A stretch of DNA of 64,000 nucleotides, taken from an uncultured Lacinutrix sp. (GTDB lineage: Bacteria; Bacteroidota; Bacteroidia; Flavobacteriales; Flavobacteriaceae). A program made the translations under genes and the position numbers. Positions 53,388 to 61,421 of this stretch are shown here, piece after piece. The stretch lies in assembly GCF_947500605.1 (NCBI RefSeq), contig NZ_CANMSJ010000001.1:124001-188000 (forward strand), in the 5' to 3' direction. The first letter of the stretch is position 1. The number at the start of each line of letters is the position of its first letter. The notes under the pieces are model-generated. The model saw only the letters and a program-made list of their open reading frames with translations. It ran no database searches and was not told the DNA's origin.

Positions 53388-53441
53388 TTTAAAGCTGAAT
53401 TATTAATAAAAACATAAAATTTAGAATAATTTTACAATTGA

Positions 53442-53474
53442 TTTGGAATTGTAAATTTATTTTAACAATATTTG
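53442..53474 (+). promoter_or_regulatory. Likely promoter of the his operon leader
   Basis: TTTG (53442-53445), 21 nt, AATATTTG (53467-53474), one mismatch from TAnnTTTG, placing the start about 10 nt before the leader ATG. Confidence 0.55.
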
Positions 53475-53491
53475 TAAACAGAAAAAAAGCA

Positions 53492-53548
53492 ATGAACTTT
53501 ATTCAATCACATCATCATCATTTTCATATTTGCACTCAAGCGAACTGA
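53492..53548 (+). CDS. hisL: His operon leader peptide
   Basis: 18 codons, MNFIQSHHHHFHICTQAN, with five His codons in six positions (7-10 and 12), followed by a TGA at 53546. It is the sensor of histidyl-tRNA supply: with too little charged tRNA-His the ribosome stops at codons 7-12. It lies between the promoter and the attenuator terminator. Its coding end contains CTCAAGCG (53535-53542), the segment able to pair with the terminator. No similarity is needed for the call; composition, position and RNA pairing agree. Confidence 0.9.
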   Translation: MNFIQSHHHHFHICTQAN

Positions 53549-53610
53549 TTATGTATTGAATAAAATCAAGATATTATTAAAAACCGTTTGAGCTAATCAA
53601 ACGGTTTTTT
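53535..53610 (+). promoter_or_regulatory. Transcription attenuator of the his operon
   Basis: Terminator: AAAACCGTTTGA (53580-53591), loop GCTAA, TCAAACGGTTTTTT (53597-53610). Antiterminator: CTCAAGCG (53535-53542) can pair with CGTTTGAG (53585-53592), eight pairs with one G-U, which destroys the terminator stem. TGATTA (53546-53551) and TAATCA (53594-53599) could extend it. Ribosome stalled at the His codons leaves 53535-53542 free (genes on); a ribosome at the stop covers it (genes off). Confidence 0.85.
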
Positions 53611-53666
53611 GTATTTATATACTTCCCAAAAGATTTGCTCAAATAAGAAAAATAAAAAAAAAGAAA

Positions 53667-54524
53667 ATGAGTAAATTAAGAATTGCAGTACAGAAATCAG
53701 GAAGATTAAACGAAGATTCAATGAAGCTTCTTAAAGATATTGGTATTTCTATCGAGAATGGAAAAGATCAATTAAAAGCATCGGCTAGAAATTTTCCTTT
53801 AGAAGTGTTTTATCTACGAAATGGCGATATACCTCAGTATTTAAGAGATGGTGTTGTGGATATTGCTATTATTGGCGAGAACGTTTTAATAGAAAAAGGA
53901 AACGATTTACCAATTGTAGAGCGCTTAGGTTTTTCAAAATGTAAAGTTTCTATTGCAGTACCAAAAGAATCTAATGCATCAAGTTTAAAAGATTTAGAAG
54001 GCAAGCGCATTGCAACATCGTACCCAAATACAGTAAATCAATTTTTAGAGAAAAACGGAATAGAAGCAAACCTTCACATTATTAATGGTTCTGTAGAAAT
54101 AGCGCCAAATATAGGTTTAGCAGATGGTATTTGCGATATTGTTTCTAGTGGAAGTACATTATTTAAAAACGGATTAAAAGAAGTAGAAGTGCTTTTAACA
54201 TCTGAAGCCGTTTTAGCAAAATCTCCAAAATTGTCTGATGATAATGAAGCGTTATTACAAAAAATTCAATTTAGAATCCAATCGGTTTTAAGAGGACAAA
54301 ATTCTAAATACGTTTTATTAAATGCGCCAAATGATAAATTAGAAGAAATTATTTCAATATTACCAGGAATGAAAAGTCCAACAGTACTGCCATTAGCAGA
54401 AGAAGGTTGGAGCAGCGTACACTCGGTAATCGATAAAAATTTATTCTGGGATGTTATCGATGAGCTAAAAGCCAAAGGAGCTCAAGGCATTTTAGTTTGT
54501 CCAATTGAAAAAATGGTAATGTAA
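53667..54524 (+). CDS. hisG: ATP phosphoribosyltransferase, long form
   Basis: 285 aa. First and committed step of histidine synthesis, joining ATP and PRPP. Catalytic domains (AVQKSGRLNEDSMKLLKDIG, DIAIIGENVLIEKGNDLP, GKRIATSYPNTV, the PRPP loop DGICDIVSSGSTLFKNGL) and a C-terminal ~75-aa regulatory domain (LPGMKSPTVLPLAEEGWSSV, AQGILVCPIEKMV), the feedback-sensitive long type that needs no HisZ. First structural gene after the attenuator. Confidence 0.97.
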   Translation: MSKLRIAVQKSGRLNEDSMKLLKDIGISIENGKDQLKASARNFPLEVFYLRNGDIPQYLRDGVVDIAIIGENVLIEKGNDLPIVERLGFSKCKVSIAVPKESNASSLKDLEGKRIATSYPNTVNQFLEKNGIEANLHIINGSVEIAPNIGLADGICDIVSSGSTLFKNGLKEVEVLLTSEAVLAKSPKLSDDNEALLQKIQFRIQSVLRGQNSKYVLLNAPNDKLEEIISILPGMKSPTVLPLAEEGWSSVHSVIDKNLFWDVIDELKAKGAQGILVCPIEKMVM

Positions 54525-54610: not shown

Positions 54611-55894
54611 ATGAATACTATACTAAACCCAAACAAATCAACGTGGTCAGCCCTTTTAAAAAGGCCTACACAAACGGTTGATGATATTGAGAACACTGTG
54701 AATCAGGTTTTTGAAGATGTATCTAAAAATGGAGACGAAGCCATTGTTAAATACACTAAGAAATTTGATGGTTGCGAATTGACTTCAAATGTTGTTACTG
54801 CTGAAGAAATAGAAAAGGCATCGGCTTTAGTTTCAGAAGATTTAAAAGAAGCTATCCAACAAGCAAAGTCAAATATAGAAGCATTTCACAGTGCTCAGAA
54901 AACAGATAAAGTTGAAGTAGAAACTGTAAAAGGTGTTCAATGTTGGCAAGAAAAAAGACCAATAGAAAAAGTTGGTTTATATATTCCAGGCGGTACTGCA
55001 CCATTATTTTCTACAGTACTAATGTTGGCAACTCCTGCAAATATAGCAGGTTGTAAAGAATTGGTGTTATGCACACCACCAAATAAAGAAGGTAAAGTAG
55101 CTAACGAAATTTTATACGCGGCAAATTTATGTGGTGTTACTAAAATTATTAAAGTTGGAGGTATTCAAGCGATTGCAGGTTTAACGTTTGGTACAGAAAC
55201 GATTCCTCAGGTTTATAAAATTTTCGGGCCAGGAAATCAGTTTGTAACTGTTGCAAAGCAAATTGCAACTAAGTTTGGTGTCGCTATAGATATGCCTGCT
55301 GGACCAAGTGAATTGTTAATTGTGGCAGACGATACAGCTAATGCAACTTACGTGGCTTCAGATTTGTTAAGTCAAGCCGAGCATGGAGCAGACAGCCAAG
55401 TTATTTTGGTATCAACCTCTAAATCTTTAATAGAAAAAGTTTCTATTGAAGTTGAAAAGCAGTTAGCAGAACTACCAAGAAAAGAGATTGCAACACAAGC
55501 AATAGCGAATTCTAAGTTAATTTATGTTGAAAACGATAACATTGCCTTAGAAATGATAAATGAATATGGACCAGAACATTTTATTGTTTGCGTAGAAAAT
55601 GAAGATTTATACGTTAATAGAATAGCAAACGCAGGCTCAGTTTTTATTGGTAATTATACACCAGAAAGTGCTGGAGATTATGCGTCTGGAACCAACCATA
55701 CGTTACCAACTAACGGATTTAGTAAAGCGTATTCCGGAGTGAATTTAGATAGTTTTACAAAAGCAATTACGTTCCAAAAAATATCAAAAGAAGGTATTTT
55801 AAATATTGGAAACACTATTGAGTTAATGGCTGAAGCCGAAGGATTACAGGCACATAAAAATGCTGTAACTTTAAGATTGAAGGATTTAAAGTAA
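54611..55894 (+). CDS. hisD: Histidinol dehydrogenase
   Basis: 427 aa. Last two oxidations of the pathway, histidinol to histidine with NAD and Zn. Motifs: ERPIEKVGLYIPGGTAPLF-like segment KVGLYIPGGTAPLFSTVLML, MPAGPSELLIVADDTA, LLSQAEHGADSQVILVS and NEYGPEHFIVCVENE with the catalytic Glu/His. Length normal. It begins 86 bp after hisG, a gap filled by two repeat elements. Confidence 0.97.
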   Translation: MNTILNPNKSTWSALLKRPTQTVDDIENTVNQVFEDVSKNGDEAIVKYTKKFDGCELTSNVVTAEEIEKASALVSEDLKEAIQQAKSNIEAFHSAQKTDKVEVETVKGVQCWQEKRPIEKVGLYIPGGTAPLFSTVLMLATPANIAGCKELVLCTPPNKEGKVANEILYAANLCGVTKIIKVGGIQAIAGLTFGTETIPQVYKIFGPGNQFVTVAKQIATKFGVAIDMPAGPSELLIVADDTANATYVASDLLSQAEHGADSQVILVSTSKSLIEKVSIEVEKQLAELPRKEIATQAIANSKLIYVENDNIALEMINEYGPEHFIVCVENEDLYVNRIANAGSVFIGNYTPESAGDYASGTNHTLPTNGFSKAYSGVNLDSFTKAITFQKISKEGILNIGNTIELMAEAEGLQAHKNAVTLRLKDLK

Positions 55895-55895
55895 C

Positions 55896-55928
55896 TGTCA
55901 TTTAGAGAGCAGAGAAGAATCTATAAAA
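55896..55928. repeat. GTCATT-AGAG-GAAGAATCTATAA repeat after hisD
   Basis: Begins TGTCATTTAGAGAGCAGAGA and ends GAATCTATAAAA. A sister copy lies in frame inside hisA at 59610-59641 with 26 of about 31 bases equal. Confidence 0.75.
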
Positions 55929-55943
55929 GAATAACGTTTTGTT

Positions 55944-55963
55944 ATTCCTGCGAAGGCAGGAAT
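55944..55963. repeat. ATTCCTGC hairpin before hisC
   Basis: ATTCCTGC GAAG GCAGGAAT, an 8-bp perfect stem, followed by CCAT. One of at least eight copies of this hairpin in the his operon. Confidence 0.85.
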
Positions 55964-55980
55964 CCATTTTAAGAAACAAT

Positions 55981-57012
55981 ATGAATATTAACATAAACAA
56001 CCTCGTTAGAGACAACATAAAAGCTTTAAAGCCTTATTCATCAGCAAGAGATGAGTTTAAAGGTACTGCCGATGTTTTTTTAGATGCCAACGAAAATCCA
56101 TTTGGAACTTTAAATAGGTATCCAGATCCGCAACAAAAAGAAATTAAAGAGAAGTTAGCTACACTTAAAACAGTAGAAACAAATCAAATTTTTATTGGTA
56201 ATGGTAGCGATGAAGTTATCGATTTAGCGTTTCGTATTTTTTGTGAACCAGGAAAAGACAAAGTATTAACGTTTTCGCCAACTTATGGAATGTACGATGT
56301 CTCTGCGAATATCAATAATATCGAGATTATAAAACAACCGTTAATTAACGATTTTCAAATTAGCCTAAACCAATTACAACCGTATTTGGATTTCGAAGAC
56401 ATAAAAATCATTTTTATCTGTTCACCAAATAACCCAACAGGAAACAGCATTAATCCTGAAGATATTGAATATGTTTTAGAAAATTTTGAAGGCATCGTTA
56501 TAGTGGACGAAGCGTATATAGATTTTAGTGCACAAGCATCATTTATTAAAAATATTAATAAATACAATAACTTAATAGTAAGCCAAACCTTTAGTAAAGC
56601 TTGGGGATTAGCAGGTGTTAGAGTAGGAGTCGCTTATGCAAGCGAAGCCATTATAAAATTATATAATCGTGTAAAACCACCATATAATATCAGTACTTTA
56701 AATCAGGAAGCCGTTTTAAAAAGCTTAAATAATTTTGAAGCAGTTACCGAAAACATTCAAATAATTCTTGATGAAAGAACAAAGTTAAAAGAAGCTTTGA
56801 GTACATTATCTATAGTGAAAAATATACATCCAACGGATGCTAATTTTTTACTCGTAGAGGTTGAAAACGCTAATAAAACGTATCAATATTTAATTGAAGA
56901 AAAAGTAATTATTAGAAATAGAAATACACAAGTAGAAAACTGTATTCGTATTACAATTGGTACTTCTGAGGAGAATGACAGATTAATAAAAGTATTAAAA
57001 GAAATATCATAA
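55981..57012 (+). CDS. hisC: Histidinol-phosphate aminotransferase
   Basis: 343 aa from ATG 55981 (MNININNLVRDNIKALKPYS). An apparent upstream start at 55939 would translate the repeat (MLFLRRQESIL), so I reject it. PLP enzyme with the substrate Tyr/Asn region NENPFGTLNRYPDP, the SPNNPTGNSI loop, IVDEAYIDFSA and the PLP Lys in SQTFSKAWGLAGVRVG. Third gene of the operon in pathway sense; converts imidazole-acetol phosphate to histidinol phosphate. Confidence 0.96.
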   Translation: MNININNLVRDNIKALKPYSSARDEFKGTADVFLDANENPFGTLNRYPDPQQKEIKEKLATLKTVETNQIFIGNGSDEVIDLAFRIFCEPGKDKVLTFSPTYGMYDVSANINNIEIIKQPLINDFQISLNQLQPYLDFEDIKIIFICSPNNPTGNSINPEDIEYVLENFEGIVIVDEAYIDFSAQASFIKNINKYNNLIVSQTFSKAWGLAGVRVGVAYASEAIIKLYNRVKPPYNISTLNQEAVLKSLNNFEAVTENIQIILDERTKLKEALSTLSIVKNIHPTDANFLLVEVENANKTYQYLIEEKVIIRNRNTQVENCIRITIGTSEENDRLIKVLKEIS

Positions 57013-57017
57013 TGTTT

Positions 57018-57093
57018 TGTCATTCCTGCGAAAGCAGGAATCCGGAGCATATTAACAATAAAAAAATAGATTCCTGCTTTCGCAGGAATGACA
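57018..57093. repeat. 76-bp element with 25-bp perfect inverted ends
   Basis: Left arm 57018-57042 (TGTCATTCCTGCGAAAGCAG...) and right arm 57069-57093 are exact reverse complements over 25 bp and each arm is itself a hairpin (ATTCCTGC GAAA GCAGGAAT). The spacer has 26 bases. The whole has the look of a tiny non-autonomous (MITE/REP pair) element and fills the 87-bp gap between hisC and hisB. Confidence 0.85.
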
Positions 57094-57099
57094 AATAAG

Positions 57100-58239
57100 A
57101 TGAAAAAAGTATTATTTATAGATAGAGACGGAACATTAGTATTAGAGCCACCAGTAGATTATCAATTAGATAGTTTAGATAAGTTAGAATTCTACCCAAA
57201 AGTATTTCAATATATGGCTAAAATAGCTTCAGAATTGGATTACGAATTGGTAATGGTTACAAATCAAGATGGTTTAGGAACAGATTCTTTTCCAGAAGAC
57301 ACCTTTTGGCCTGCTCAAAACAAAGTAATGAGCGCTTTCGAAAAAGAAGGTGTTGTTTTTACTGAAGTTTTTATAGATAAAACGTTTCCTCATGAAAATG
57401 CCGAAACACGCAAACCAAGAACAGGTTTGTTAACGCAGTATTTTGACAAAGAAAAATACGATTTAGAAAATTCTTTTGTTTTAGGTGATCGTATTACAGA
57501 TATGGAATTGGCTAAAAATTTAGGAGCTAAAGGTATCTTTCTATCTGAAGATCCTGAGTTAGGAGCAGATGAAATTGAAACTTCTAAACAAGCAATCTTA
57601 GACTGTATCGCTTTAACAAGCACAGATTGGGAAGCTATCTATGAGTTTTTAAAATTAGAAGATCGTGTAGAAGAAATTACACGTAATACTAACGAAACAC
57701 AGATTTACATTAAACTAAATCTTGATGGTTCTGGTAAAAACGATATTGATACGGGTTTATCTTTTTTCGATCATATGTTAGACCAAATTGGTCGTCATGG
57801 CGCAATGGATTTAACCATTAAAGTAAAAGGTGATTTAGAAGTAGACGAGCACCACACTATTGAAGATACCATGATTACTTTAGGTGAGCTATTCAACAAA
57901 GCTTTAGGGAACAAATTAGGAATAGAACGTTATGGTTTCTGTTTACCAATGGACGACTGTTTAGCACAAGTAGCAGTGGATTTTGGAGGTAGAAATTGGT
58001 TAGAATGGGAAGCAGATTTTAAACGTGAAAAAATTGGCGATATGCCAACAGAAATGTTTTTCCATTTATTTAAATCGTTTACAGATGGCGCAAAATGTAA
58101 TTTAAACATAAAAGCTGAAGGTAAAAACGAACACCACAAAATAGAAGGTATTTTTAAAGCCTTTGCAAAAGCTATGAAAATGGCAGTAAAACGCGATTCA
58201 AATAAAATGTTTTTACCATCAACTAAAGGCATGTTGTAA
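57100..58239 (+). CDS. hisB: Bifunctional histidinol-phosphatase / imidazoleglycerol-phosphate dehydratase
   Basis: 379 aa from ATG 57100 ([17 protein letters not shown]); an ATG at 57088 lies in the repeat. Residues 1-165 are the HAD phosphatase (DRDGTL with the nucleophile Asp, [39 protein letters not shown]). Residues about 185-379 are the dehydratase with duplicated Mn ligands ([29 protein letters not shown] and [17 protein letters not shown]). The enterobacterial-style fusion is usual in Bacteroidetes. Confidence 0.96.
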
Positions 58240-58246
58240 ATAGTTT

Positions 58247-58321
58247 TGTCATTCCTGCGCAAGCAGGAATCCACAAGCTAAAAATAATTAAAAATAGATT
58301 CCTGCTTTTGCAGGAATGACA
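58247..58321. repeat. 75-bp inverted-pair element between hisB and hisH
   Basis: Left arm 58247-58271 (TGTCATTCCTGCGCAAGCAG...) and right arm 58297-58321 are inverted copies differing at two bases; each is a hairpin. Sister of the element at 57018 with almost the same size. Confidence 0.85.
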
Positions 58322-58326
58322 GAAGA

Positions 58327-58908
58327 ATGAAACTAGTTATAATAAATTACGGAGCAGGAAATATTAAAAGCATTCAGTTTGCTTTTAAAAGACTTGGTGT
58401 AGATGCTATTTTGTCTAACAATCCAGAAGAAATAAAAGCTGCTGATAAAGTGATTTTCCCAGGTGTTGGTGAAGCAAACTCAGCAATGAAAATGCTTAGA
58501 GCCTCAGGATTAGATGCTTTAATTCCAACTTTAAAACAACCTGTTTTAGGTATTTGTTTGGGTATGCAATTAATGTGTAAATCTTCGGAAGAAGGAAATA
58601 CAAAAGGTTTAAGCATCTTTAATGTCGCTATTAAACGTTTTTCAAATGCTGTAAAAGTGCCACAAATGGGATGGAATACTATTTCAGATTTAAAATCACC
58701 TTTATTTAAGGACATTAAGGAAGATGCTTTTATGTATTTAGTCCATAGCTTTTATGCCGAAGCGTGTATCGAGCAAATTGCAACTACAAATTATGAGTTT
58801 AATTACGCATCTGCATTACAGAAAGATAATTTTTATGGTGTGCAATTTCACCCAGAGAAAAGTAGTGTAGTGGGAGAGCAAATTTTGAAGAATTTTTTAG
58901 CACTTTAG
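58327..58908 (+). CDS. hisH: Imidazole glycerol phosphate synthase, glutaminase subunit
   Basis: 193-aa class-I glutamine amidotransferase that feeds ammonia to HisF. Nucleophile Cys C77 in GICLGMQLM, catalytic His and Glu in VQFHPEKSSVVGEQIL, and the oxyanion strand IFPGVGEANSAM. Pairs with hisF at 59931 in a tunnel complex. It begins 6 bp after the end of the repeat, so the repeat provides its 5' context. Confidence 0.97.
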   Translation: MKLVIINYGAGNIKSIQFAFKRLGVDAILSNNPEEIKAADKVIFPGVGEANSAMKMLRASGLDALIPTLKQPVLGICLGMQLMCKSSEEGNTKGLSIFNVAIKRFSNAVKVPQMGWNTISDLKSPLFKDIKEDAFMYLVHSFYAEACIEQIATTNYEFNYASALQKDNFYGVQFHPEKSSVVGEQILKNFLAL

Positions 58909-58913
58909 GGCGT

Positions 58914-58983
58914 TATTCTGAATTTATTTCAGAATCTAATAGTAAGATATAATGTTTTGTCATTCCGCACTTGATGCGGAATC
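58914..58983. repeat. Two palindromes between hisH and hisA
   Basis: First ATTCTGAA ... TTCAGAAT (58915-58935), sister of 34345-34368. Second TGTCATTCCGCA CTTGA TGCGGAATC (58958-58983), a variant of the ATTCCTGC hairpin with the GTCATTCC start kept but a different stem. Confidence 0.75.
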
Positions 58984-59013
58984 CACAATAAAAGAATAAG
59001 TATTAATTAAAAC

Positions 59014-59036
59014 AGATTTCCCTTTTCACGGGAAGG
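59014..59036. repeat. TTTCCC-TTTTCAC-GGGAA palindrome before hisA
   Basis: GATTTCCC TTTTCAC GGGAAGG, 7 bp before the hisA ATG; same family as 10798-10820 (in reverse orientation) and 54586-54604. Confidence 0.6.
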
Positions 59037-59042
59037 TAAACT

Positions 59043-59786
59043 ATGAGAATAATACCAGCAATAGATATTATAGACGGAAAATGTGTTCGTTTAAGTAAAG
59101 GAGATTATAACACAAAGAAAATATATAACGAAAGTCCGTTAGAAGTAGCTAAGTCTTTTGAAGGTGCAGGAATCCAGTATTTGCACGTTGTAGATTTAGA
59201 TGGCGCAAAAGCAAAACACATTATTAATCATAAGGTTTTAGAGCAAATAGCAATTAAAACGAACTTGAAAATAGATTTTGGAGGTGGATTAAAAACCGAT
59301 GAAGATTTAAAAATAGCTTTTAATTCTGGTGCTTCTCAAATTACAGGAGGAAGTATTGCAGTTAAAAATCCTGAGATTTTTCAAGAATGGTTAATTAAGT
59401 TTGGAAGCGATAAAATTATTCTTGGAGCCGACTGTAATAACGAAAACATTGCTATTAGTGGTTGGTTAGAAGAAAGTGATTTAAAAGTAATTCCGTTTAT
59501 TAAAGAGTATCAAGAAAAAGGAGTAAGCTACGTTATTTGTACAGATATTTCTAAAGATGGTATGCTTGAAGGCCCTAGTTTTGAGTTGTATGAGCGTATT
59601 TTAAAAGGTTGTCATTCAGAGAAAAGCGAAGAATCTATAAAACTAATAGCTTCTGGAGGAATTTCAACTTTCGATGAGTTGCCAAAATTAGCCGAGTTAG
59701 GTTGCGAAGGTGTTATAATTGGTAAAGCAATTTATGAAAACAGAATTAGCTTAAAACAATTAGAGAATTATATAATTAATAAATAG
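59043..59786 (+). CDS. hisA: ProFAR isomerase with an in-frame repeat insertion
   Basis: 247 aa. Amadori isomerase of histidine synthesis, TIM barrel. Catalytic Asp D8 in [19 protein letters not shown], phosphate loop [13 protein letters not shown], second catalytic Asp in [17 protein letters not shown], and [16 protein letters not shown]. Residues about 189-199 ([11 protein letters not shown]) between the seventh helix and the LIASGG strand are encoded by a dispersed repeat (59610-59641); relatives have about six fewer residues here. The barrel motifs are all intact, so the protein is probably active with a longer loop. Confidence 0.95.
59610..59641. repeat. Repeat copy inside the hisA coding sequence
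   Basis: Starts TGTCATTCAGAGAAAAGCGA and continues GAATCTATAA. It aligns with the intergenic copy at 55896-55928 and keeps the hisA frame open, coding [11 protein letters not shown]. Confidence 0.75.
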
Positions 59787-59790
59787 TTTT

Positions 59791-59927
59791 TGTCATTCCT
59801 GCGTAGGCAGGAATCCACAATAAAAGTAATAGTATAGTTATGTAACACTTGAATAATTAAAAGTGTTTCTACGAAAAGAAAATTAAGAACAATAATTAAT
59901 AAGATTCCTGCCTACGCAGGAATGACA
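59791..59927. repeat. 137-bp element with 25-bp perfect inverted ends
   Basis: Left arm 59791-59815 (TGTCATTCCTGCGTAGGCAG...) equals the reverse complement of 59903-59927 exactly over 25 bp. The spacer of 87 bases is AT-rich with no frame. It ends four bases before the hisF start, and its right arm contains an ATG (59922) that must not be taken for the gene start. Confidence 0.85.
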
Positions 59928-59930
59928 GAT

Positions 59931-60686
59931 ATGCTTACAAAACGAATAATACCTTGCTTAGATATTAAAAATGGACGTACCGTAAAAGGCGTAAATTTTG
60001 TCGATTTACGAGATGCTGGAGATCCTGTAGAATTAGCCAAGCAATATGCTTTAAAAGGAGCAGATGAGTTGGTTTTTCTTGATATTTCTGCAACTTTAGA
60101 AGGTCGAAAAACCATGCACGATATGGTTTTAAAAGTTGCCGAACATGTAAATATTCCATTTACAGTTGGTGGTGGAATTTCGAGTATTGAAGATGTAGAC
60201 GCTTTATTAAAATGCGGAGCAGATAAGATTTCTATAAATTCGTCAGCAGTAAAAAGACCAGAATTGGTTAACGAATTGGCGAATAAATTTGGAAGTCAGT
60301 GCGTTGTGGTTGCTATAGATGCTAAAAATGTAGATGGTAATTGGATTGTGCATTTAGCAGGAGGAACTATTCCAACAAAACTAAATTTATTCGATTGGGC
60401 AAAAGAAGTAGAACAACGTGGAGCAGGAGAAATTTTGTTTACGTCTATGGATAATGATGGTACAAAGGATGGTTTTGCAAACGATGCTTTAGCAAAATTA
60501 TCTGAAGAATTAAATATTCCAATTATAGCTTCAGGTGGAGCAGGAACGATTCAGCATTTTGTGGATACCTTTAAAAAGGGAAAGGCAGATGCTGCTTTGG
60601 CTGCGAGTGTATTTCATTTTGGAGAAATACCAATTTCAGAATTAAAAGAAGCATTAAAAGAAAATAATATAGCAGTACGATTATAG
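59931..60686 (+). CDS. hisF: Imidazole glycerol phosphate synthase, cyclase subunit
   Basis: 251 aa from ATG 59931 ([20 protein letters not shown]); the in-frame ATG at 59922 is within the repeat. TIM barrel with D11 in CLDIKNG and the second catalytic Asp in [44 protein letters not shown], and [15 protein letters not shown]. Works with HisH to close the imidazole ring. Length standard. Confidence 0.97.
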
Positions 60687-60696
60687 TTGTACATAA

Positions 60697-60747
60697 TGTC
60701 ACTTCAAGTGATTTGTGAAGCATGAACAAAGTGTATCGAGAGGCTTT
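60697..60747. repeat. GTCACTTCAAGTGA-family repeat between hisF and hisIE
   Basis: Begins GTCACTTCAAGTGATTTGTG and ends GTGTATCGAGAGGC. Second copy of the family seen at 54529-54574, with the palindromic TCACTTCAAGTGA start and the CGAGA end kept. Confidence 0.75.
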
Positions 60748-60818
60748 TAAAAATGACTTTTGATACTAAATTGTAGAAAACACAATCTCATTAGAACTGG
60801 CGTAAATAATAAAACAAA

Positions 60819-61421
60819 ATGAATATAGATTTCAATAAAAACAAAGATGGTTTAGTACCTGCAGTTATACAAGACGCAACAACAAAAAACGTATTAATGT
60901 TGGGTTATATGAACGAAGAAGCGTTCAATAAAACGAAGGAAACTAAATTAGTGACCTTTTTTAGTAGAACTAAAAATCGTTTGTGGACTAAAGGAGAAGA
61001 AAGCGGAAACGTTTTAAATTTAGTAGATATAAAACTGGATTGTGACAACGACACGTTGTTAATTCAGGTAAATCCAAAAGGACCAACATGCCATAAAGGA
61101 ACAGATACGTGCTGGAATTATGAAAATACTGAGAATTTTGGTTTTATTTCAAAATTAGAAAACACTATTGAAAGTAGAGTAAAATCCGGTGATTCAGAGA
61201 AATCTTATGTCGCTTCATTATTTGCATCTGGTATTAATAAAGTCGCTCAAAAAGTAGGTGAGGAGGCTGTGGAAGTTGTTATTGAAGCAATGGATAACAA
61301 CGACGACTTGTTTTTAAGTGAAAGTGCAGATTTATTATTTCATTATTTAATGTTGTTACAAGCAAAAGGCTTTAAATTAAATGATGTAGTTGCTGTTTTA
61401 AAGGGAAGAGAGAAGAAGTAA
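60819..61421 (+). CDS. hisIE: Bifunctional PR-AMP cyclohydrolase / PR-ATP pyrophosphatase
   Basis: 200 aa. Residues about 1-105 are HisI (VLMLGYMNEEAFNKT, FFSRTKNRLWTKGEESGN, IKLDCDNDTLLIQV, zinc Cys motif CHKGTDTCWN). Residues about 110-200 are HisE (SYVASLFASGINKVAQKVGE, EEAVEVVIEAMD, DLLFHYLMLLQAKGFKLNDV). The two catalyse steps two and three of histidine synthesis. Last gene of the operon; a strong hairpin follows the stop. Confidence 0.97.
   Translation: MNIDFNKNKDGLVPAVIQDATTKNVLMLGYMNEEAFNKTKETKLVTFFSRTKNRLWTKGEESGNVLNLVDIKLDCDNDTLLIQVNPKGPTCHKGTDTCWNYENTENFGFISKLENTIESRVKSGDSEKSYVASLFASGINKVAQKVGEEAVEVVIEAMDNNDDLFLSESADLLFHYLMLLQAKGFKLNDVVAVLKGREKK

Follow-up and report, generated by a model that had tools for sequence, protein, structure and literature searches.

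The interval between an SPFH-domain gene (Band_7) and hisG, at positions 53442-53667 of the window (the whole 64,000-nucleotide stretch of uncultured Lacinutrix sp. DNA analysed here), contains what is in all likelihood a genuine attenuator of a known kind, widespread in Bacteroidia and partly in print; its apparently new part is a conserved helix whose second strand lies past the terminator. Judging from the sequence and its relatives, we consider it very likely that the his operon is controlled here by ribosome-mediated transcription attenuation. A sequence-only reading of this DNA had proposed his attenuation logic of the proteobacterial type, and that proposal is supported by the leader, by covariation in the antiterminator and by the geometry of the element. 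The gene downstream, hisG, is the first of a hisG-D-C-B-H-A-F-IE run, so the attenuator precedes its cognate biosynthetic operon. The features are collected in Table 1.

Table 1. Features of the hisG upstream region and the his operon, in window coordinates
Feature	Position	Strand	Basis
Candidate promoter: TTTGGA (53442-53447) and AATATTTG (53467-53474)	53442..53474	+	Resembles the Bacteroidetes -7 element TAnnTTTG
Leader ORF MNFIQSHHHHFHICTQAN	53492..53548	+	Five His codons in six positions; kept in 79/79 usable named relatives
P1, 5' strand (codons 3-7 of the leader; first His codon included)	53498..53512	+	Pairs with 53551-53564; swap test
Region 2, 5' strand of the antiterminator, CTCAAGCG (last leader codons)	53535..53542	+	Pairs with 53585-53592; swap tests
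P1, 3' strand (just past the leader stop)	53551..53564	+	Pairs with 53498-53512; swap test
Intrinsic terminator (regions 3 and 4, loop GCTAA 53592-53596)	53579..53609	+	Predicted 13-bp hairpin, running into T-run 53605-53610
Region 3 core CGTTTGAG, contested by regions 2, 4 and 5	53585..53592	+	Complementarity to all three
3:5 helix, 5' strand (region 3 and terminator loop)	53586..53598	+	Complementarity to 53632-53644; covariation
Region 5 GATTTGCTCAAAT, 22 nt upstream of the hisG ATG	53632..53644	+	Complementary to 53586-53598
hisG	53667..54524	+	PF01634 (2.1e-49), PF08029 (2.6e-29)
hisD, hisC, hisB, hisH, hisA, hisF, hisIE (remaining his operon)	54611..61421	+	Inferred names (Pfam families, gene order)

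The leader starts with an ATG at 53492, carries its His codons at 53510-53521 and 53525-53527 and ends with a TGA at 53546-53548, exactly where the sequence-only reading had placed an 18-codon frame with five His codons in six positions followed by a stop. The fold of the leader region was better than those of 200 out of 200 dinucleotide shuffles (z -3.53). As a chance control for the leader itself, we searched ATG-started short frames in the 260 nt upstream of 80 hisG genes and in shuffled sequences (n = 2,000). At least three equal residues within eight were found for His in 80/80 upstream regions, compared with 10/80 for the next residue, Ile, and with 24/2,000 shuffles for His; at a threshold of at least four within eight, the counts were 63/80 for His, 2/80 for Ile and 3/2,000 in the shuffles. 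The His-rich leader is therefore far above chance, and codons for the amino acid made by the operon are clustered in a short leader frame. The -7 element of Bacteroidetes promoters has the consensus TAnnTTTG. In the 60 nt before the leader ATG, 69 of the 80 loci have a relaxed promoter match (51 at 16-20 nt and 16 at 7-8 nt), and 20 of the 80 have the strict motif; a -7 element of this type is mentioned in the text of PMC6847099.

Conservation of the leader was followed through a family, an order and a class sample. The family set comprised the best 80 of at least 502 relatives recovered by a hisG search of genome contigs, all titled with Flavobacteriaceae genera or as uncultured Flavobacteriaceae apart from two titled only Bacteroidia bacterium. 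In the order sample, hisG was found in 80 of 128 genomes, 60 of which were taken into the order set; the window's own genome, five others, 13 of a genus with ~600-kb genomes and one with a split gene stayed outside it, and the family and order sets have a single locus in common (L161 of the order sample, identical to the named L021). The class sample yielded hisG in 69 of 158 genomes, the window's own included, and the 68 others were used. All 79 named relatives whose upstream sequence was long enough have a His-rich leader before hisG, as do 52 of the 60 order-level genomes and, counting ATG-started frames with at least three His in eight, 58 of the 68 class loci; the check for a conserved His-rich frame that the sequence-only reading had called for thus came out positive. 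That reading had also regarded such leaders as mainly proteobacterial, with the implication that they would be rare here, and in this it was wrong, since they are instead common in the class sample.

All eight order-level genomes without the leader belong to the genus with ~600-kb genomes (f76/g133), whose members are probably endosymbionts. By eye, a hairpin-like repeat lies close before hisG in all eight of these loci (L202-L209) and no His-rich frame was seen, and it seems that the sensor has been lost and the terminator-like hairpin retained. Also by eye, the class loci L108 and L111 have GTG-started leaders. Four class loci of family f39 (L143, L144, L145 and L148) show a different leader layout, with ends such as HHRHERR, HHHHHVVIR, HHRHCGDR and HHRR and no clear intrinsic terminator before hisG; these are possibly under translational or Rho-dependent control. 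Four more class loci (L122, L128, L131 and L142) have leaders ending in HHSS, HHHSS or HHAS and a purine-rich stretch past the stop, again with no clear terminator, which may represent a further design.

An intrinsic terminator lies between the leader and the first gene. The hairpin and T-run described in the sequence-only reading are there, although the predicted stem has 13 bp rather than the 12 bp it gave. Hairpins with a T-run and stronger than -10 kcal/mol were found in 80/80 family, 52/60 order and 48/68 class loci. The antiterminator competes with this hairpin: CTCAAGCG at 53535-53542 pairs with CGUUUGAG at 53585-53592 in 8 bp, one of them G.U, and CGUUUGAG lies in the 5' arm and loop of the terminator. 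The sequence-only claim that an 8-nt segment in the last leader codons pairs here and excludes the terminator was accordingly borne out. If the pairing of regions 2 and 3 (2:3) is real, terminator arms from other loci should be poorer partners for a leader than the arm of its own locus, and we tested this by swapping partners, with one locus for each distinct region 3. Across the order (29 distinct), own pairs scored -14.12 and swapped pairs -10.77 (sd 0.47), and across the other orders of the class (40 distinct) the values were -13.68 and -10.94 (sd 0.42); in neither case was any of 20,000 permutations as good. Within the family the same test gave no covariation signal (-12.52 vs. -12.29; 3,545/20,000), because both segments hardly vary there. 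The compensating changes that the sequence-only reading had proposed to look for are thus found across order and class, the antiterminator being invariant within the family, and antiterminator and terminator are mutually exclusive. Region 2 is the stretch TCAAGCG, and as a result 74 of 80 rows (window included) have leaders whose last three residues are QA and one more.

Counted from the first clustered His codon, region 2 begins a median of 23 nt (family), 21 nt (order) and 24.5 nt (class) further on; its end is at about the stop codon. Given the size of a ribosome footprint, a ribosome at the stop codon should therefore cover region 2 and one at the first His codon should not, and this geometry of ribosome and antiterminator strand is similar in family, order and class. 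A second stem, P1, joins the early leader codons to the sequence just past the stop. Its swap test was clear in the family (own -10.66 vs. -8.86, 0/20,000) and gave 88/20,000 in the order and 2/20,000 in the other orders; P1 covariation is weaker than that of 2:3 and of the post-terminator helix described below. Because the first His codon is inside the 5' strand of P1, this stem would come apart under a ribosome on the His run; we infer that P1 would help to hide region 2 when the leader is untranslated.

Read as an attenuator of this type, the element would work as follows. When charged tRNA-His is scarce, a ribosome would stall on the His run at 53510-53527, with P1 open and region 2 free; free region 2 would pair with nascent region 3, the terminator pairing of regions 3 and 4 (3:4) would come too late, and RNA polymerase would run on into hisG. 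When histidine is sufficient, the ribosome would reach the stop and cover region 2, and 3:4 would end transcription. An untranslated leader would also be expected to lead to termination, by forming P1 and a small hairpin that covers region 2. In Flavobacteriales, region 3 and the terminator loop have a fourth partner, region 5, which would act after the termination decision. Under equilibrium folding of the modelled starved state, 2:3 exceeded a probability of one half in only 5 of 80 loci, which counts against the scheme at equilibrium; antitermination must therefore be kinetic, as it is in attenuators in general.

In the aligned loci, the reverse complement of the terminator 5' arm and loop recurs past the terminator. 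In the window this gives a 13-position helix between 53586-53598 and 53632-53644 (3:5), with 11 Watson-Crick pairs, one G.U pair and one mismatch. Neither this helix nor P1 appeared in the sequence-only reading, and both are conserved. In swap tests, 3:5 scored -12.75 vs. -9.60 (sd 0.35) in the family (35 distinct) and -12.59 vs. -7.95 (sd 0.49) in the order (29 distinct), with 0/20,000 permutations as good in each and again none for the 28 order loci that remain without the family-shared one. Across the other orders, the result was -5.10 vs. -4.46 (448/20,000), weakening to 4,525/20,000 without L126 and L139; the helix is clear there in only three of 43 loci (L091, L126 and L139), in which it is perhaps older than the order or was perhaps transferred. 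Of 137 Flavobacteriales loci (135 distinct), 116 have a predicted 3:5 duplex of -9 kcal/mol or better, a loose cut-off that six of the 43 other-order loci also pass, three of them by a clear 3:5. The remaining 21 of the 137 have no duplex of that strength, and 3:5 is therefore dispensable in some.

We then examined the helix pair by pair in 65 rows drawn from the 132 loci of the family and order sets that have a terminator, taking those with a loop of 5-6 nt, a duplex of -9 or better and a stretch of up to 105 nt and removing near-duplicates. The 13 pairs were 91.7% standard, a figure that this selection biases upward, and the share dropped to 22-42% when the partner was slid. The swap tests are free of that kind of selection. 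Eight of the 13 pairs change on both sides, with 48 such cells compared with 11.5 in shuffles; in the terminator stem of the same rows, which was 98.8% paired, two pairs change on both sides. On a hisG tree of 55 of the 80 loci (those with 5-nt loops, in registers that were chosen for pairing and so inflate it), we counted 16 double compensatory changes in 3:5, against a mean of 4.1 and a maximum of 10 in 200 permutations. We conclude that 3:5 covaries strongly across Flavobacteriales.

Leaders rich in aromatic residues and followed by terminators also occur in relatives of the window's genome, before pheA (18 of 20 loci analysed) and before trpE (8 loci, picked for having leader and terminator), and these served as controls. 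No 3:5 helix was detectable in the phe set (18 loci; 3,706 of 5,000 permutations as good) or in the trp set (8 loci; 2,193 of 5,000), and 3:5 therefore does not simply come with an attenuator. In the window's own genome, a Trp leader, MKTKLNHTWWWTSRNFNFVN, with a terminator precedes trpE (L313:492-554, G000:C9), and small hairpin-like repeats lie directly before the trpE start. The same genome has a Phe leader, MKTFQTTYYSWFYFFFSEKNETAYV, before pheA (L314:337-414, G000:C11), the start of which seems to be TTG; here a 9-bp complement flanks the terminator (5' flank vs. downstream), and the phe set as a whole follows no such rule. A scan for leaders before ilvD gave no consistent picture.

Region 5 is made after the termination decision, so that 3:5 cannot decide termination and concerns read-through RNA only. 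In the window 3:4 is much more stable than 3:5 (-15.8 vs. -7.5 kcal/mol), and 3:4 is the stronger helix in most loci. When we folded three ribosome states at equilibrium, the probability of 3:5 averaged 0.09-0.10; in a calculation without the hisG coding bases its mean was 0.34, and it exceeded one half in 46 of 137 loci. The distance from region 5 to the ATG has a median of 16 nt (IQR 14-19). In F. johnsoniae, according to PMC6847099, pairing tends to be absent from the region from -20 to +20, and mRNA structure near the start codon tunes initiation, if subtly. Because of these findings and because region 5 is near the ATG, translation is our first guess for the role of 3:5, and we would put just under an even chance on the helix adding a layer of hisG control that acts on translation. 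A further-reaching account of the Flavobacteriales his attenuators, to which we give somewhat less than even odds, is a two-level switch in which region 3 would be a hub that chooses region 2 (read-through), region 4 (stop) or region 5, and in which region 5, with the loop as a toehold, would control hisG translation either in cis or in trans via the released leader RNA.

The evidence does not all point towards translation. The distance from region 5 to the terminator (median 20, IQR 17-24.5) is about as constant as that to the ATG, so region 5 does not clearly keep its place relative to the start codon; given this and the loci of genus g2 (inferred to be Flavobacterium), where region 5 lies 24-34 nt from the ATG in 11 of 13, anchoring to the start codon was rejected as decisive proof of a translational role. 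The openness of the hisG start in the three-state folding did not differ between states (mean 0.54-0.55), a result that lends no support to translational gating. The g2 spacing, the equal openness and the restriction of 3:5 to read-through RNA would all suit a plain attenuator in which the helix affects the fate of the read-through mRNA, through its stability or the processing of the his 5' end, rather than translation. We nevertheless think this unlikely to be the full account, as 94 of 116 loci have the end of region 5 at 10-22 nt before the ATG, in or beside the segment reported as mostly unpaired in F. johnsoniae (PMC6847099).

It is less probable still that the helix acts chiefly in trans, with terminated leader RNA, made when histidine is high, using its loop and 5'-arm region 3 to bind region 5 in full-length his mRNA. 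In Sinorhizobium, the attenuator RNA rnTrpL acts on trp mRNA in this way, the covarying stretch consists of the terminator loop and one arm, which is the layout of loop-seeded antisense RNAs, and a plentiful attenuated transcript is to be expected; pairing in cis, however, is the simpler account of the same covariation. It is very improbable that the inverted repeat formed by regions 3 and 5 serves a regulator as its DNA site instead of forming an RNA helix: its two 13-nt arms do lie inverted between promoter and hisG, but G.U makes up 48% of the non-Watson-Crick cells compared with 21% in the null (80 loci), an excess that speaks for an RNA of the plus strand, the arm sequences vary with compensation, and one arm doubles as a terminator arm.

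An Rfam covariance-model scan of the window returned no family at its gathering score, and in 53400-53700, where 10 matches had E up to 10, neither His_leader (RF00514) nor T-box was one of them. Weak matches to Phe_leader (21.3 bits) and to a plastid 3'UTR family (28.6 bits) were both far below the gathering score and were set aside. A His-rich frame is not known as a component of T-boxes. With that and the Rfam result against it, control of the operon by a tRNA-sensing T-box or another known riboregulator is scarcely credible, even though T-boxes precede his genes in Firmicutes (PMC9413887).

Compared with known systems, the element is most readily set beside the enterobacterial his attenuator (RF00514), with which it shares a leader rich in His codons before hisG, alternative antiterminator and terminator structures and a cognate operon. 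It differs in that the window has no Rfam match, and probably also in the position of its antiterminator strand inside the last leader codons and in the extra 3:5 helix. A 2021 transcriptome of F. psychrophilum reports clues to leader-peptide attenuation before amino-acid operons and a structured 5' element preceding hisG that other Flavobacteriaceae genera share and Rfam lacks (PMC9723704). This is very probably the same element in a relative, although the text on it in PMC9723704 presents no leader sequence, alternative pairing scheme or post-terminator helix. In Bacteroides thetaiotaomicron, short frames reminiscent of attenuation leaders were described in 2020 (PMC7366714). His attenuators were placed in Proteobacteria and some Firmicutes in 2022 (PMC9413887), and a text on his genes in Bacteroidota mentions attenuation for enterobacteria (PMC8305728). 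The Firmicutes attenuators, including the hisZ and hisS leaders (PMC2965389), resemble ours in their short frames with runs of His codons and in having terminator and antiterminator (PMC9413887), but they belong to another phylum, and the passages on them in PMC9413887 and PMC2965389 mention no post-terminator partner. The phe and trp attenuators of relatives are similar in their aromatic-rich short frame and terminator before pheA or trpE and differ in having no detectable 3:5. In the text of these papers, found by querying open-licence literature with terms other than a name for the helix, we saw no description of 3:5.

Leader-peptide attenuation requires a ribosome close behind RNA polymerase. 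The phylum has no Shine-Dalgarno sequences (PMC6847099), and the wide presence of the attenuator in Bacteroidia offers a natural test of coupling there. The 3:5 helix, kept through most of an order, is a concrete and mutable element next to the first gene of the operon, and it suggests a second level of control.
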